Assembly (NCBI RefSeq): GCF_003955685.1
Contig: NZ_RXHJ01000010.1
Location: 19,697-83,696 of the forward strand
Origin: Corynebacterium hylobatis
GTDB taxonomy: Bacteria > Actinomycetota > Actinomycetes > Mycobacteriales > Mycobacteriaceae
DNA: 64,000 bases
Reading direction: 5' to 3'
Both the position numbers and the translations under genes were made by a program. Below the pieces are notes generated by a model. That model made no database searches and was not told the DNA's origin. It was given only the letters and a program-made list of their open reading frames with translations. Below are positions 12,834-64,000 of this stretch, piece after piece. Numbering within the stretch: position 1 is the first letter of the stretch; each line of letters opens with the position of its first letter.

Positions 12834-13205
12834 GTGAAATCGAAAGACATCCCACTCGAAACCCTGCTGGCCGAAGAAACCATGCTCACGCTGCCGGAGA
12901 CCGCCGACCGGCTCGGTGTGGTGGTCACCCGGGTCCATGACCTGCTGGGTGCGAAGAAACTCATCGCCCACGTGATCGACGGCAGACGCCACATCCCGGA
13001 GGCGCTGTTCAAGGAGGGTGAGGCCACCACCGGCAAGTTCGTGCCCGGCGTGCTCACCCTCCTGGCCGACGGCGGCTACTCCGACGAGGAGATCCTGCGG
13101 TTCCTGTTCACCGAGGACGAGACGCTGCCGGGACGGCCGGTGGATGCGCTGCACGGTCAGCTGGCCCGCGAGGTGCTGCGCCGGGCGCAGGCCATGGCCC
13201 TCTGA
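12834..13205 (+). CDS. Rv2175c-like DNA-binding protein
   Basis: A small soluble protein of 123 residues. A winged or MerR-like helix-turn-helix is visible in the N-terminal half (ETADRLGVVVTRVHDLL, then AHVIDGRRHIPEALF), followed by a conserved C-terminal half with LTLLADGGYSDEEILRFLFTEDETLPGRP. The latter is characteristic of the Rv2175c family, whose DNA binding is blocked when PknL phosphorylates it in M. tuberculosis. The divergent pknL supports the same pairing here. A Thr-rich N-terminus (MLTLPETADR) offers possible phosphosites. The last 98 bases overlap the convergent mptA gene. Target genes are unknown. Confidence 0.85.
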   Translation: MKSKDIPLETLLAEETMLTLPETADRLGVVVTRVHDLLGAKKLIAHVIDGRRHIPEALFKEGEATTGKFVPGVLTLLADGGYSDEEILRFLFTEDETLPGRPVDALHGQLAREVLRRAQAMAL

Positions 13206-14637
13206 GATCCCGGCCGAAGGCCCAGTCGGTGAGCACCCAGGCGAGGACGAAGACACCCGCCATCCACCACGTGTTGTAGAGCTGATGGTTGCCGCTGCCG
13301 GTGAAGGACAGGGTGACCACGACGGATGCCCCCACCGCCAGCCGCTGCACCCAGCCGGGCGGGCGGACGGTGCCCACGAGGCTGATCACTGAGGCGTAGT
13401 ACCAGGGCAGCGTAACCGAGTTGAAGACGAAGGCCACCTGGTAGGCAGTCGCCGTGCCCGCGATGGCGCGGCGGTCATCCTGCCGGAAGAGCCACCAGAC
13501 GATGACCAGGCCTGCGAGCATGAGCACCATCGACACCGGCCGCAGGACAGCCAGAGCCACGTTGTAGTCGAAGTCGTCGCGGAACAGCTGGATGAAGGTG
13601 GTCACCGCGCCCGCGGTCAGCGAAGGCCAGGCCAGCGGGTTGATCACCTTCGAGTTGCCGGAGATCTCCGAGAGCCAACCCCACGAGGCCCCCGACAGGA
13701 AGGTCACCGCCGCGACCACCAGCAGGGTCTCCACGACGGCGACAAAACCCGTCAGCAGGAAGGCCAGCACCTGGTTGATCCGCGCCGCGTAGTGGCGGGT
13801 GGCCATCCACACGACAAAGGGCAGGGCGATCGCCGCGGTGGCCTTGAGCGAGACCGCCACGGCGATCAGCGCCACACCCAGCACGAAACGTCGGTTCAGA
13901 CAGGCCAGCAGGCCGAGGCTGACGAGCCCGACCATGACGGACTCGTTGTGCATGCCGCCGACCATGTGCAGGACCATCACCGGGTTGGCCACACCCAGCC
14001 ACAGGGCGAGCACCGGATCCCCGCCCAGCCGCCGCGCGATGCGGGGCACCGCCCATGCGATGGCCGCGAAACCCGCCACGGAGAGGAGTTTGTACATGAT
14101 CACCCCGGCGGTGACGTGGTCGCCGACGAGCCGGGTCACCCCCTCACCGATCCACAGGTGAAGCGGCCCGTAGGGGGTGGTGGTGTTGCGCCAGTCATGG
14201 GAGACCTCCAGCAGGAAAGGCCCCGGGTTCACGGCCGCGCCCTGCGTATAGGGGTCGAAACCGTCGCGCAGCATGGCGCCCTGCATGAGATAGGAGTAGA
14301 CGTCGCGCGAGAGCATCGGTGCCGCCGGGATCAACGGCAGCACCCAGGCCCACATCGCGGTACGCACGGCCTTCTCCCGCTTATCGACGTCCCCCTCCCG
14401 TGCCCCCAGCACGTGCCTGCGGCCGAGCGTGATCCAGCCCAGCAGGAGCAGGACGACACCGAACCAGAAGACCGTGTTGGAGATGCCCGCTCCGCGGCCG
14501 TAGGCGAGGAAGTCCAGACCCGCCGCCTCCAGGACACCACCGCGGTTGCGGGTGGCGCCCCCGCCGAAGGAACCCAGGAGCAGCAGGAGGGAGCCGATCA
14601 GCCCCAGGGTCACCGCCCGGGGCAGGCGGAGGACCAT
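13108..14637 (-). CDS. mptA: Alpha-1,6-mannopyranosyltransferase MptA
   Basis: A 509-residue GT-C membrane enzyme with 11-13 hydrophobic segments. It uses polyprenyl-phosphate mannose to extend the alpha-1,6 mannan backbone of lipomannan on the outer face of the membrane. The first large loop carries SRDVYSYLMQGAMLRDGFDPY, which includes the catalytic acidic residue typical of MptA/MptB, then TTTPYGPLHLWI. The ATG shares its A with the TGA of idsA, so translation is coupled to the gene that makes the polyprenyl chain. The hydrophilic tail (from about residue 475, rich in Pro, Ala and Arg) is encoded across the end of the Rv2175c-like gene on the other strand. Confidence 0.88.
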   Translation of the reverse strand: MVLRLPRAVTLGLIGSLLLLLGSFGGGATRNRGGVLEAAGLDFLAYGRGAGISNTVFWFGVVLLLLGWITLGRRHVLGAREGDVDKREKAVRTAMWAWVLPLIPAAPMLSRDVYSYLMQGAMLRDGFDPYTQGAAVNPGPFLLEVSHDWRNTTTPYGPLHLWIGEGVTRLVGDHVTAGVIMYKLLSVAGFAAIAWAVPRIARRLGGDPVLALWLGVANPVMVLHMVGGMHNESVMVGLVSLGLLACLNRRFVLGVALIAVAVSLKATAAIALPFVVWMATRHYAARINQVLAFLLTGFVAVVETLLVVAAVTFLSGASWGWLSEISGNSKVINPLAWPSLTAGAVTTFIQLFRDDFDYNVALAVLRPVSMVLMLAGLVIVWWLFRQDDRRAIAGTATAYQVAFVFNSVTLPWYYASVISLVGTVRPPGWVQRLAVGASVVVTLSFTGSGNHQLYNTWWMAGVFVLAWVLTDWAFGRDLRGPWPAPGAAPRGPADRAAHPPAVPAASRPR

Positions 14638-60519: not shown

Positions 60520-61581
60520 TTAATTCTGGGGCGAACCACCTGGTGTGTGTTTGAAATCGTGGAACACAACCGACGACGGCCGTGCAGTCTGATATGCGGG
60601 TAGAATTCCGTCGTCCCCGTCAGAGACGGGCTCATCATTGGACGCGGTCACCCACAGATTGATCCTGAGCTGTTGTGTGTCATCCCGCGGGACACGGGTC
60701 GTGGCGGTGACATCCGACAGCACGGTACCGTCGCTCGTGGTCGTCTGCACCGACAGATAGTTCGGCAACCATGTGGCCTTCGTCGTCAGCGTCTGATGAC
60801 CGTTCGGCACATCAAACTCGGAGGGAACGTACTTCACCGGGGCCACCGTCTTCCCGTTGTCCGGGTAGTAGGTCACCCCACCATGTGCGAACTCACGCTC
60901 CACGTCACCCCATCGGGAAATCTCGATGAAATCAATCTCCGTCGAACCATCCCCATTAGTGTGATCTCCCCACAGAATCATCTCGGCCATGTCATACGTG
61001 AAGATGCCCAGGACCGTATGCGGATCCTGGGCATCAAAATCGGCGGAGTAGGTGAACTCAAAGTCGCCGTAGCCGAGGGACTCCACAACATGGATCTCCA
61101 CACCACCGGCGATACCCTCATTCTGGATTACGAGGTCACCCGCAGCATTGACACTTGCACCTTTGACCCACTTCTGCAGTCCGTCCTCTGGGTCATCAGC
61201 CTGTGGACCACCCCAAGTAATAATATTGTTTATCTCGCGTACACCCCAGGTGTGTCCAGCCCAGTCAAAAGTGTCGAATCCCAATTCGGAGGAGAACCGG
61301 TGCCCATGCTGCTCACAATAAGTGGGTCCCGGGCCATTCTGACTGCTCACACTTTCCATCATCACCCCCGGAGCAGTCCCGCCAGGGCGCTCACCGAGCA
61401 GATGTGCATCGCCATCATCCAGTGGCGCACAATAGTCGAACGTCGATTCCCTATGGGTATCGGCAGATGTGTTCAGATCCGGCGCCGAGACTAGGGCGGC
61501 GCAGCCCCCCAACATTGAGGCGGTCGCAACAGCTGCGGTGCCGAGCAGGAACCGCAGCATGACCACGGTACGGTGTTCCAC
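60520..61581 (-). CDS. GH16-type secreted lipoprotein (beta-glucanase-like)
   Basis: A 353-residue predicted lipoprotein. The signal peptide ends in the lipobox LGGC with Cys27. The mature protein has a GH16 jelly-roll pattern: the catalytic ExDxxE is STEIDFIEISRWG with Glu215, Asp217 and Glu220, preceded by GDFEFTYSADF and followed by WVTASNDEPVSDGD. GH16 enzymes cleave beta-1,3/1,4 glucans, galactans or related polymers. GTG 61581 is chosen: TACAGT lies seven bases upstream, and the start gives a basic N-terminus. Base composition is lower in GC than in ilvA. It faces away from the glycosyltransferase operon beyond the IS remnant, so a shared polysaccharide is possible but unproven. Confidence 0.78.
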   Translation of the reverse strand: MEHRTVVMLRFLLGTAAVATASMLGGCAALVSAPDLNTSADTHRESTFDYCAPLDDGDAHLLGERPGGTAPGVMMESVSSQNGPGPTYCEQHGHRFSSELGFDTFDWAGHTWGVREINNIITWGGPQADDPEDGLQKWVKGASVNAAGDLVIQNEGIAGGVEIHVVESLGYGDFEFTYSADFDAQDPHTVLGIFTYDMAEMILWGDHTNGDGSTEIDFIEISRWGDVEREFAHGGVTYYPDNGKTVAPVKYVPSEFDVPNGHQTLTTKATWLPNYLSVQTTTSDGTVLSDVTATTRVPRDDTQQLRINLWVTASNDEPVSDGDDGILPAYQTARPSSVVFHDFKHTPGGSPQN

Positions 61582-61682
61582 GCCCCCAACTGTACACCGC
61601 ACCGAACGATATGAAGCGGCCAGAATTCTGCAGGAGCCTCACTTGGGGGCCTCCCGCCAGGGATATGTAACTGCAGATGTGG

Positions 61683-61850
61683 CACTCCTTGTCGGCGCAC
61701 AGCACGACCGCTGACTCCGGCGGATTCCGATACCGCTCGGTGAGGTCGTGCACCTTCTCGGGGTGCAACGGATGATTAGAGAATGTGAAACCATTCTCCG
61801 GGTGTGGCTTGATCGTAGATCCCAGCAGGCCGACCTATCCACCGTACTGG
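61683..61850 (-). pseudogene. IS630-family transposase fragment
   Basis: Read on the minus strand, one frame gives IKPHPENGFTFSNHPLHPEK, then VHDLTERYRNPPESAVVLCADKE. This matches the core of IS630 transposases as I remember it (LKPHR.ETFKLS.DPLF.EKV.D...YL.PPE.AVVL..DEK), including the first Asp of the DDE site. An upstream bit with STVDR and a frame change fits the helix-turn-helix end. Homology stops right after the DKE. No start, no later catalytic residues and no ends of the element are present, so this is a relic. Confidence 0.7.
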
Positions 61851-62304
61851 CCCGCCCTCAAGAGGTGACATTCTCTCGCGTTGATTCCTTGGGTATCGAT
61901 GATGACCTACTTGAGCTGGTCTGAGGTGCCTGGGCTGGACCACTGGGGCAGTGCCGGAGGGACCTCGGGGGCCATGTCGGCACCCGTCGACAACAAATTC
62001 CCTGAGCGACAGGTGGGAGCCGGGTCTGACGTCTCCCGTCCACGCATTCCGGCACGATCCTGGGCGGACCTGCGCAGCCGTCTGATGCGCCGGTAGCGGA
62101 CACTCCTGGCCAGATCCTCCCCAAAGGTTTCCGAAGCAAGCATTTTGGGGTCAATTTGCAGACCTGTGACTGTACTCACAGTGGGCCGACGCTGGCCTTG
62201 TGGGTGGCGACTTTTACTGCTCCTGACTTCATTGTATATCGATTAGTGCATGGGTTTGGAGTGGCGGAATCTGGGGGACGACCCGCCTTGAGAAATTACT
62301 TTCC

Positions 62305-62332
62305 TTGACAACTAAATTGGTCCTGTTATGGT
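62305..62332 (+). promoter_or_regulatory. Promoter of the glycosyltransferase operon
   Basis: A perfect TTGACA -35, 16 bases, then TATGGT. The transcript would begin near 62339, about 105 bases before the first start codon. Confidence 0.65.
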
Positions 62333-62445
62333 CTCCCATCGACAGTGCATTGCCATTCGAGTCCCCCAATCATGATTAAAAATCTGCCTATTCATCGTGG
62401 TTGCAATTGGCTATTTCTGTGGCTTTTTCATGAGAAGGTGCGAAA

Positions 62446-62772
62446 TTGACAAGTGTGCTGGTGTCTCAGGATGGCATTCTGGAAAAGATGATGAAGAGGG
62501 CCCTACCTGCCAGTAATATTGTGCGTTACGCCGACCTGGATTCTATTTCCGATCAGGTACTCGAGCGTGCGGATTTTGTTTTCTACGATGAATCGTCCAT
62601 TGGCCTAACAGCGCTGATAGAGCGGGAAGTATATTCACGGCTTGGCGGGAAGCTCGTAATATTAACCGAGAAGCACCCCGAACTAATCCGGTGCAGTTTT
62701 CGGGCAAAAGTCTTTTCATATCCGATTAACCTGGGAGAAATATATAATCATGTCACGAACGTTGACAATTGA
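62446..62772 (+). CDS. Receiver-like (pseudo-response-regulator) small protein
   Basis: A 108-residue soluble protein, AT-rich in its DNA. I do not recognise a named family, but the alternating strand/helix order resembles a CheY-type receiver: SVLVSQD (strand 1, Asp9), ADFVFYD (strand 3 ending in Asp48, the phosphoacceptor position), KLVILTE (strand 4 with Thr74) and AKVFSYP (strand 5), where the usual Lys before Pro is Tyr92. The missing lysine and single N-terminal acid suggest a pseudo-receiver that may not be phosphorylated in the normal way. TTG start with GAGAAGG seven bases upstream. The stop overlaps the next gene by 23 bases. First gene of a three-gene operon with a glycosyltransferase. 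Confidence 0.7.
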   Translation: MTSVLVSQDGILEKMMKRALPASNIVRYADLDSISDQVLERADFVFYDESSIGLTALIEREVYSRLGGKLVILTEKHPELIRCSFRAKVFSYPINLGEIYNHVTNVDN

Positions 62773-63400
62773 TACATCTCTAATTTTCTTCGCCGTCAAT
62801 ATGTTGCTTGTTTTGATCGGAATATTGACAGTGTATCTGCTGATAAATAACGCTCGCGCAAAGAAAAAAGATCAGCGCAAAGAGGAATATCTCGATCAGC
62901 ACCATGATGAATGGGTACGTGCTATCAGTGACGGTGAAGAAATCTCTGTCACATTGGATAGACCGGAGCAGGTGGAATGGACCATCGACATCTTCCTCTC
63001 CCATCACAATGATTATAAGGACGATGTCACGCGCTCTCGGATCACTGAATTGGCTGAGGAGCACTTTTCTGACTATCTTGCTGATGCATTGGGCTCGCGT
63101 CGGCAGGCGGCACGCCACTACGCACTCGCAGTGATCTACCAGCTGAACATCGATGCACTCGGTGACCAGGTCGCCAGCGTCTCCGCGAGTACCGAGTTCG
63201 AGAGGGCGCTCGCCGCAGCGATCACGGCCCGAGAGCACCGGGTGGGAGTGTCGGATGCTGAAGGAAAATTTGGTACTAACGCGGTCAAGAGGTCCGCACT
63301 AGACATTATCGAGGCGGAAAAAGTTGGCTCGCCGGCGAATCGCCTCAGAAACATTCTGGCTAGCCACCAGCCGGCAAGGGAAGAGGCAGTAAGTGTCTAG
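62750..63400 (+). CDS. Membrane-anchored helical protein (HEAT-like)
   Basis: A 216-residue protein with one N-terminal membrane helix (LIFFAVNMLLVLIGILTVYLLI) followed by a charged stretch (NARAKKKDQRKEEYLDQHHDEW), which by the positive-inside rule places the rest in the cytoplasm. The soluble part is all helical with Ala-rich pairs (EHFSDYLADALGSRRQAARHYALAVIYQLN), as in HEAT-repeat proteins; the repeats are too diverged to count. It overlaps both neighbours, so the three genes are coupled. From memory, similar anchored helical proteins are often found beside this type of GT2 synthase, perhaps as a regulator or scaffold. Confidence 0.65.
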   Translation: MSRTLTIDTSLIFFAVNMLLVLIGILTVYLLINNARAKKKDQRKEEYLDQHHDEWVRAISDGEEISVTLDRPEQVEWTIDIFLSHHNDYKDDVTRSRITELAEEHFSDYLADALGSRRQAARHYALAVIYQLNIDALGDQVASVSASTEFERALAAAITAREHRVGVSDAEGKFGTNAVKRSALDIIEAEKVGSPANRLRNILASHQPAREEAVSV

Positions 63401-64000
63401 TTTCAACGGCATACTTGCATGGACTGGTTACCTGTTAGCCGCGTATCTCATTCTGGTCGTTCTGTTCTATCTCGCCATGATGGTAATGGCGGTCGTGAAG
63501 ATCAATCATAATCGCCGTTATGAGCAGTCCATGGACCTGCTGAGCAACAGCGATTTTTATGACCTTGGAGTCTCGATCCTTGTTCCGGCCTATAACGAGG
63601 AGAGCGGGATTGTCCAGAATATCTACTCCCTGCTCAACCTCAATTACAAGGCGTTTGAGGTTATCGTGGTCAACGATGGCTCCTCTGACTCCACCCAGGA
63701 AATCGTGGTTGAGAAGTTCAAGATGGTGCCGCTGCATGATTCGCCAATTGAGGGGAGTCTTCATACGGCTGAGGTGATCAGCGTGTACGTATCGTCGATC
63801 TATCCGAACCTGATATTGGTTAATAAGGAGAACGGCGGCAAGGCTGATGCACTGAACTGCGGGATCAACTATTCGCAGTATGATTATGTTTGCACCGTGG
63901 ACGGTGATTCCGTTCTGGAGAAGAATGCCATCAAGAAGGTCATGCGACCTTTTGTGGCTCTTCACGATTTAGAGTGCGTTGATCTTCCCCTGCAGCTGCC
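63393..64000 (+). CDS. Processive family 2 glycosyltransferase, N-terminal part
   Basis: The gene starts at a GTG that overlaps the previous stop by eight bases and runs past the window end; 202 residues are visible. A membrane helix (about 8-36) precedes the GT2 domain. SILVPAYNEESGIVQNI and VIVVNDGSSDST bind the nucleotide sugar. KENGGKADALNCGIN is the conserved Lys/Asn block, and TVDGDSVLE holds the DxD metal site (Asp170, Asp172). A 40-residue insert lies between the second and third motif. The layout is that of membrane polysaccharide synthases such as PgaC, NodC or hyaluronan synthase, which polymerise and export beta-linked sugars. The QxxRW motif that would confirm processivity lies outside the window. 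Confidence 0.85.
   Translation, partial: MSSFNGILAWTGYLLAAYLILVVLFYLAMMVMAVVKINHNRRYEQSMDLLSNSDFYDLGVSILVPAYNEESGIVQNIYSLLNLNYKAFEVIVVNDGSSDSTQEIVVEKFKMVPLHDSPIEGSLHTAEVISVYVSSIYPNLILVNKENGGKADALNCGINYSQYDYVCTVDGDSVLEKNAIKKVMRPFVALHDLECVDLPLQL

Follow-up and report, generated by a model that had tools for sequence, protein, structure and literature searches.

What an AT-rich operon at the edge of a corynebacterial contig might make, how its activity might be set and how it came to lie there are the questions raised by the end of a 64,000-nucleotide stretch of the Corynebacterium hylobatis genome (the window; bases 19697-83696 of contig C42, with which it shares its end; positions given below are those of the window unless a contig or locus is named). 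The first-pass annotation of this DNA had described a three-gene module with a promoter of its own, encoding a receiver-like protein, a membrane-anchored helical protein and a PgaC/NodC-type synthase of glycosyltransferase family 2 (GT2). Our analyses lead us to favour, with moderate confidence, a reading in which this is an acquired four-gene operon for an exported beta-linked sugar polymer, the receiver and a HEAT-type protein acting as a switch in intact relatives, and the copy in C. hylobatis being split by an ISL3-type insertion sequence. The synthase family concerned is found in many bacteria and in some archaea and is a new variant of the synthase-dependent polysaccharide systems.

Within the window, gene 1 (62446-62772, forward strand, TTG start after GAGAAGG) encodes a stand-alone protein of 108 amino acids with a modelled receiver fold, a putative pseudo-receiver; gene 2 (62750-63400, forward) encodes a membrane-anchored protein of 216 amino acids, apparently related to the first part of synthase-linked HEAT-repeat proteins; and gene 3 (first part, 63393-63955, forward) encodes the beginning of a GT2 synthase (PF00535, 2e-26) carrying the motifs VNDGS and DGDS. 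These open reading frames (ORFs) were read again at the coordinates given before, genes 1 and 2 overlapping by 23 bases and genes 2 and 3 by 8 bases. The synthase had been read on to 64000, but its frame stops at 63955, and the last 45 bases (63956-64000, minus strand) are the end of an ISL3-type element with the last codons of its transposase. The end of contig C18 carries exactly these bases, and C1 and C19 have them at 91% identity. The minus strand of the window end reads QLQGKINAL-stop, like the C-terminus of the ORF adjoining the same end on C1 and C19, and the C1 ORF, which lies beside a near-identical end (L003), is an ISL3 transposase (DDE_Tnp_ISL3, PF01610, E 1.8e-59); a reading of the window end as synthase was rejected on this account. 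A search with the C-terminal half of an intact relative's synthase found the missing half at a single site in the genome, the end of contig C45 (92318-93079, 65% identity; the second part of gene 3 is at L020:16184-17068, minus strand). C45 terminates in the other end of an element of this kind, with terminal repeats identical at 24 of 26 positions, and the 8-bp word CCTTTTGT (63948-63955, forward) adjoins the element on both flanks, its second copy standing on C45 at the element's other end. ISL3 elements make 8-bp duplications, and a transposase, terminal repeats and an 8-bp duplication are all found here. Because the ends match, the same word stands on both flanks and the frames to either side are otherwise open, the synthase gene is interrupted by an ISL3-type insertion, which cuts it in two in this genome. 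The middle of the element is absent from the contigs. ISL3-type ends occur at several contigs (the window end, C18, C1 and C19), where they coincide with contig breaks, which makes the element multicopy. The operon itself has four genes rather than three, since on C45 the second part of the synthase is followed by an ORF of 1035 amino acids (gene 4), the start of which overlaps the synthase end.

The part of the synthase on C45 supplies GED, QRRRW and three predicted helices, so that the two halves together hold the catalytic Asp motifs, GED, QxxRW and downstream helices of a processive GT2 synthase. The earlier assignment to GT2 therefore stood, but not the narrower PgaC/NodC label: against the PgaC/IcaA model (NCBIfam TIGR03937, cut-off 422.3 bits) the synthase of the intact relative L014 scores 145.5, that of Brevibacillus 138.4 and that of L058 127.9, and against the NodC model (TIGR04242, cut-off 550 bits) L014 scores 38.5. 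What the family has in common with PgaC/IcaA-type and BcsA-type synthases is a GT2 with DxD, GED and QxxRW, helices after the catalytic part and a glycosidase partner gene; whereas those systems have PgaD or PilZ-type partners and are often switched by cyclic di-GMP (c-di-GMP), the partners here are a receiver and a HEAT protein. Gene 4 is modelled as a clan GH-A glycosidase, a TIM barrel with two predicted catalytic Glu residues. GH157 is its best fold match, solved structures gave no match by sequence at E 1, and GH113 mannanase (PF22612, cut-off 27 bits) was rejected at scores of 16.9 for gene 4 and 20.2 for its C. glaucum counterpart. Unlike GH157 and other clan GH-A glycosidases, gene 4 reaches no family cut-off, is membrane-anchored and belongs to a family linked or fused to a synthase. 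Likewise, PslG and PgaB-like glycosidases are encoded with a polysaccharide machine, and PslG (5bx9) was among the Foldseek hits of gene 4, but they form a different protein family, and the role of gene 4 is proposed by us from its fold and position.

Gene 2 has one predicted membrane helix (residues 14-32), in keeping with the annotated membrane anchor. The accompanying description as an unrelated helical protein gave way to that of a shortened HEAT-type adaptor. No Pfam family, HEAT included, matches gene 2, whereas its relatives in other phyla match PF13646; a profile of seven gene 2 sequences, however, aligned by hhalign with 15 synthase-linked HEAT proteins at a score of 40.6 (P 7e-5, probability 63%), the aligned region lying directly after the membrane helix and linker. 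Controls scored far lower, at 23.4 for the best of 120 shuffles (60 by column, 60 by block), 20.3 for the reversed profile and at most 20.5 for five unrelated pieces of the fourth protein, and an orphan fold without relatives was ruled out on this comparison. With its N-terminal helix and this homology, gene 2 is most likely a shortened relative of the synthase-linked HEAT proteins. A database of 5.8 billion proteins contained just two further matches besides the window's own, and weak matches in two of 101 relatives searched (G054 and G100) led to loci (L016, L017) that by eye contain no such operon. Gene 1 has one further match in the same database. It is modelled as a (beta-alpha)5 receiver fold, which agrees with the receiver-like protein originally described. 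In an alignment of six sequences the phosphorylation residues are incomplete, the acid pair being replaced by SQ, SR, ST or TT and the Lys by Tyr92, and Asp48 and Thr74 are invariant. With positions taken from this alignment and the model, gene 1 is, on the modelled fold, devoid of the residues for normal phosphorylation.

Our survey of gene neighbourhoods indicates that related synthases in other genomes have the same arrangement beside them; with QxxRW and downstream helices also present in the second half of gene 3, neither of the two findings named beforehand as contradicting the module was obtained. A profile of gene 4 matched 31 of 396 evenly drawn Actinomycetota genomes, C. hylobatis included, and the surroundings were read in 23 of the 30 from outside Corynebacterium, seven being set aside as fragments or weak matches (G598, G283, G380, G533, G589, G323 and G359). 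A related GT2 lies near the glycosidase in 17 of these 23 loci, in one frame with it in six, and a HEAT gene stands beside the GT2 in 16 of the 17, the exception being a contig of 3.3 kb. In 13 of these 16 loci a receiver lies no more than 1.5 kb from the HEAT gene, and none was seen in the six glycosidase loci without a GT2. The hidden Markov models used were seeded with some of the loci that they then recovered (for HEAT, nine seeds and 11 further loci that were not seeds). A similar picture was obtained from plasmids, for which 15 of 490 records with a related GT2 were picked from the 20 top matches and not at random. All 12 records whose GT2 shares at least 31% identity with that of Brevibacillus have an adjoining HEAT gene (in Emticicia recognised by our own profile only, E 1e-8), and the three below 30% (Natrinema, Acidithiobacillus and Kocuria) have neither HEAT nor receiver. 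A receiver belongs to the cluster in seven of the 12 (Mesorhizobium, Salinirubellus, Haloarcula, Halosolutus, Erythrobacter, Emticicia and Devosia) and was not found in the Paenibacillus, Deinococcus, Planococcus, Bacteroides and Legionella adelaidensis records, for the last two as judged from the annotation of 4-5 kb flanks. The genes overlap in Salinirubellus, as genes 1-3 do in the window, and adjacency of receiver, HEAT and GT2 is seen in other phyla. In Brevibacillus massiliensis, the glycosidase, HEAT and GT2 genes are accompanied by a gene for a 273-amino-acid protein ending in a receiver (PF00072, 2.6e-25) with its phospho-Asp changed to Glu. The full set of phosphorylation residues is present in 15 of 18 aligned receivers, the exceptions being Brevibacillus, Emticicia and Devosia (the alignment comprises receivers other than the fused ones of L073 and L074). 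Genes for kinases or Hpt proteins stand beside the cassette in L058, L065, Mesorhizobium, Devosia and Haloarcula; for example, sensor kinases flank the Haloarcula cluster on both sides, L065 has a histidine kinase, and in L058 (L058:3-3948) the receiver-HEAT-GT2 cassette directly follows genes for a hybrid histidine kinase containing Hpt and for a receiver-GGDEF protein, neighbours that would join a phosphorelay and c-di-GMP.

Within the genus, the gene 4 family is present at full length in six of 242 members, C. hylobatis included, with one weak partial match besides (G054, L035, E 6e-4). The synthase is unsplit in the five other loci, and gene 1 is recognisable in four of them. The surroundings of these operons differ, and operon GC content is mostly below that of the flanks. 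That of 62305-63955 is 0.49 (0.46, 0.52 and 0.49 for genes 1 to 3) compared with 0.68 for bases 1-60418, which agrees with the AT-richness noted before. In C. hylobatis the C42 side is flanked by an IlvA-like gene, and on C45 gene 4 is followed by a gene in the opposite direction that we take to be TreZ-like, the two being separated by 3537 bp on C42, 4099 bp on C45 and the element. In G018 (with an IlvA-like protein 90% identical), G009 and G007, the three relatives tabulated of 30 searched, the same two genes are convergent and just 15, 40 and 62 bp apart, which supports the joining of C42 to C45 as well as acquisition at this site. A tree built from 27 glycosidase domains places the Corynebacterium sequences next to an uncultured metagenome-assembled genome (MAG) labelled Dolosicoccus (100/100); Paenibacillus and a single long-branched actinobacterium join them at a deeper node (97/98), and the other actinobacterial sequences stand apart. 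Together with composition and insertion site, this tree points to transfer, as had been suggested earlier; acquisition of the operon in this way is supported, and the data carry no direction.

Our results suggest a mechanism for the intact operons, which would combine a receiver-fold protein, a membrane HEAT-type protein, a GT2 polysaccharide synthase and an anchored glycosidase-fold protein. At the membrane, the synthase would polymerise a nucleotide sugar and export the resulting chain, with the HEAT protein sitting in the membrane against its cytoplasmic face. In most lineages a histidine kinase or an Hpt protein would phosphorylate the stand-alone receiver, the receiver would set synthase activity after translation by docking on the HEAT protein, and the glycosidase-fold protein, which is one polypeptide with the synthase in some actinobacteria, would trim or release the chain outside. 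In Corynebacterium neither the metal-binding acid pair nor the lysine appears to remain in the receiver, and the HEAT protein seems to have been reduced to about one repeat; in view of these losses the switch there would either be fixed or depend on something other than ordinary phosphorylation. Extended to the whole family, the proposal is that two-component signalling, relayed by a stand-alone receiver and a HEAT adaptor in the membrane, switches a GT2 family spread across bacteria and haloarchaea, corynebacteria having a stripped-down form in which a phosphorylation-blind pseudo-receiver acts on a one-repeat adaptor; we consider the chances of this to be evenly balanced. Among systems already tested, the closest precedent comes from Myxococcus xanthus, where the single-domain response regulator EpsW activates EpsZ, the phosphoglycosyl transferase starting exopolysaccharide synthesis (PMC12802240); EpsW, too, is a stand-alone receiver that controls a polysaccharide enzyme post-translationally. 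As described there, its target belongs to a Wzx/Wzy pathway and is contacted directly, whereas here a GT2 synthase with an interposed HEAT protein is proposed from genes. That source presents synthase-dependent polysaccharides as mostly known to be switched by c-di-GMP (PMC12802240). If true, our proposal would place a third means of gating GT2 synthases next to c-di-GMP and transcription, and a widespread cassette equipped with a receiver and HEAT adaptor of its own would couple polymer output directly to two-component signalling in organisms ranging from soil bacteria to haloarchaea. Being a defined set of three genes, the cassette can be tested in one strain, and the corynebacterial form would be a natural minimal version. 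A literature search covering papers outside subscription found no description of a receiver-HEAT-GT2 cassette.

Several observations weigh against such a switch. We found no published experiment on these proteins, adjacency does not show binding or gating, and no kinase genes were seen beside the Corynebacterium operons. Gene 1 matches neither PF00072 nor any other Pfam family at E 1, a profile of HEAT-linked receivers reaches it at E 0.45 (0.015 at best, for a relative) and hhalign against receivers gives P 0.084, leaving the fold model to carry its presumed link to receivers; likewise, comparison of gene 2 with one or four HEAT sequences (P 0.04 and 0.013) gave no support. The genes do not fix the identity of the polymer either, and the hints conflict, the GH157-like fold suggesting a beta-1,3-glucan and the PgaC-like GT2 and the glmS and nucleotidyltransferase neighbours in Halosolutus an amino sugar. 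Gene 1 could be a different Rossmann-like protein that merely resembles a receiver when modelled, the operon then being a plain synthase and hydrolase; its lack of any Pfam or profile match and the presence of an uncharacterised human Rossmann-fold protein among the Foldseek hits fit this idea, which we nevertheless judge distinctly improbable. Somewhat less improbable, but still unlikely in our view, is that the HEAT-type protein serves the synthase as a fixed structural subunit, comparable with the non-catalytic scaffold partners of other synthases, and that the receiver is an accessory affecting something else, for instance localisation or another pathway, with no switch at all. The near-universal presence of HEAT beside the GT2s (16 of 17 loci, 12 of 12 plasmid records) would suit a scaffold, as would the absence of a nearby receiver from three of 16 actinobacterial HEAT loci and five of 12 plasmid records, the want of catalytic residues in all six aligned gene 1 sequences and the operon of G058, which has genes 2-4 without gene 1 and indicates that gene 1 may be dispensable. 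Yet a mere scaffold sits poorly with 13 of 16 loci having a receiver devoid of an output domain at most 1.5 kb from HEAT, with its absence from all six glycosidase loci lacking a synthase and with the kinase or Hpt genes adjoining several clusters.

As regards the C. hylobatis copy itself, that the synthase gene is whole and seems split because a repeat end was wrongly joined to C42 and C45 during assembly might be argued from the window end being a contig end and from the same 45 bases also ending C18. This is very improbable indeed, as C42 and C45 end in opposite ends of one ISL3-type element, the same 8-bp word stands next to each end at homologous points of the synthase, as a real insertion would duplicate it, and ISL3 transposase genes are present in the genome. 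It is, on the contrary, quite probable that the operon in this genome is a dying acquisition without function, its synthase split and its remaining genes decaying. The insertion with target duplication inside the synthase, the foreign composition of the operon DNA, its absence from the corresponding site in relatives and the finding of just five more carriers among the 241 other genus members searched all favour such a fate, but genes 1, 2 and 4 and both parts of the synthase are otherwise open frames, from which the insertion looks recent. The copy is probably inactive, and a loss of function here would be compatible with the receiver/HEAT switch that we favour for intact relatives.

Further features were noted around these operons. 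An ORF resembling by eye a polysaccharide deacetylase (L066:5466-8105) adjoins glycosidase and synthase genes, and a gene for a YaiO-type outer-membrane barrel, likely the exit pore, is also part of the cluster in three Gram-negative records (L080, L083 and L088). The operon of G058 lies between two 300-nucleotide copies, 88% alike, of a chromate-transporter-like stretch (L015:6925-7224 and 13185-13484), and a contig of the Dolosicoccus-labelled MAG (L024:1861-3701) carries a glycosidase in two frames, 55% identical to the corynebacterial one, with a scrap of GT2 beside it. In the window, a promoter-like TTGACA-16-TATGGT box does precede gene 1 (62305-62332, forward), but it is weak and a scan of 61600-63000 found two such sites compared with a mean of 1.5 in shuffled sequence, leaving the claimed promoter unproven. 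The supposed IS630 relic before the operon could not be upheld, the overlying ORF (61451-61768, minus) having no Pfam match. Two short stretches of the degraded region at 61713-61926 recur on contig C38 with 71% and 81% identity, where no clear transposase was seen. The insert that holds the operon also contains, at 60520-61602 on the minus strand, an ORF for a secreted or anchored protein of 360 amino acids with a predicted N-terminal helix. Pfam, NCBIfam and the PDB gave no match to this protein, and among the loci compared it had no homologue apart from itself; it carries the word EIDFIE, which we take to resemble the active site of GH16.
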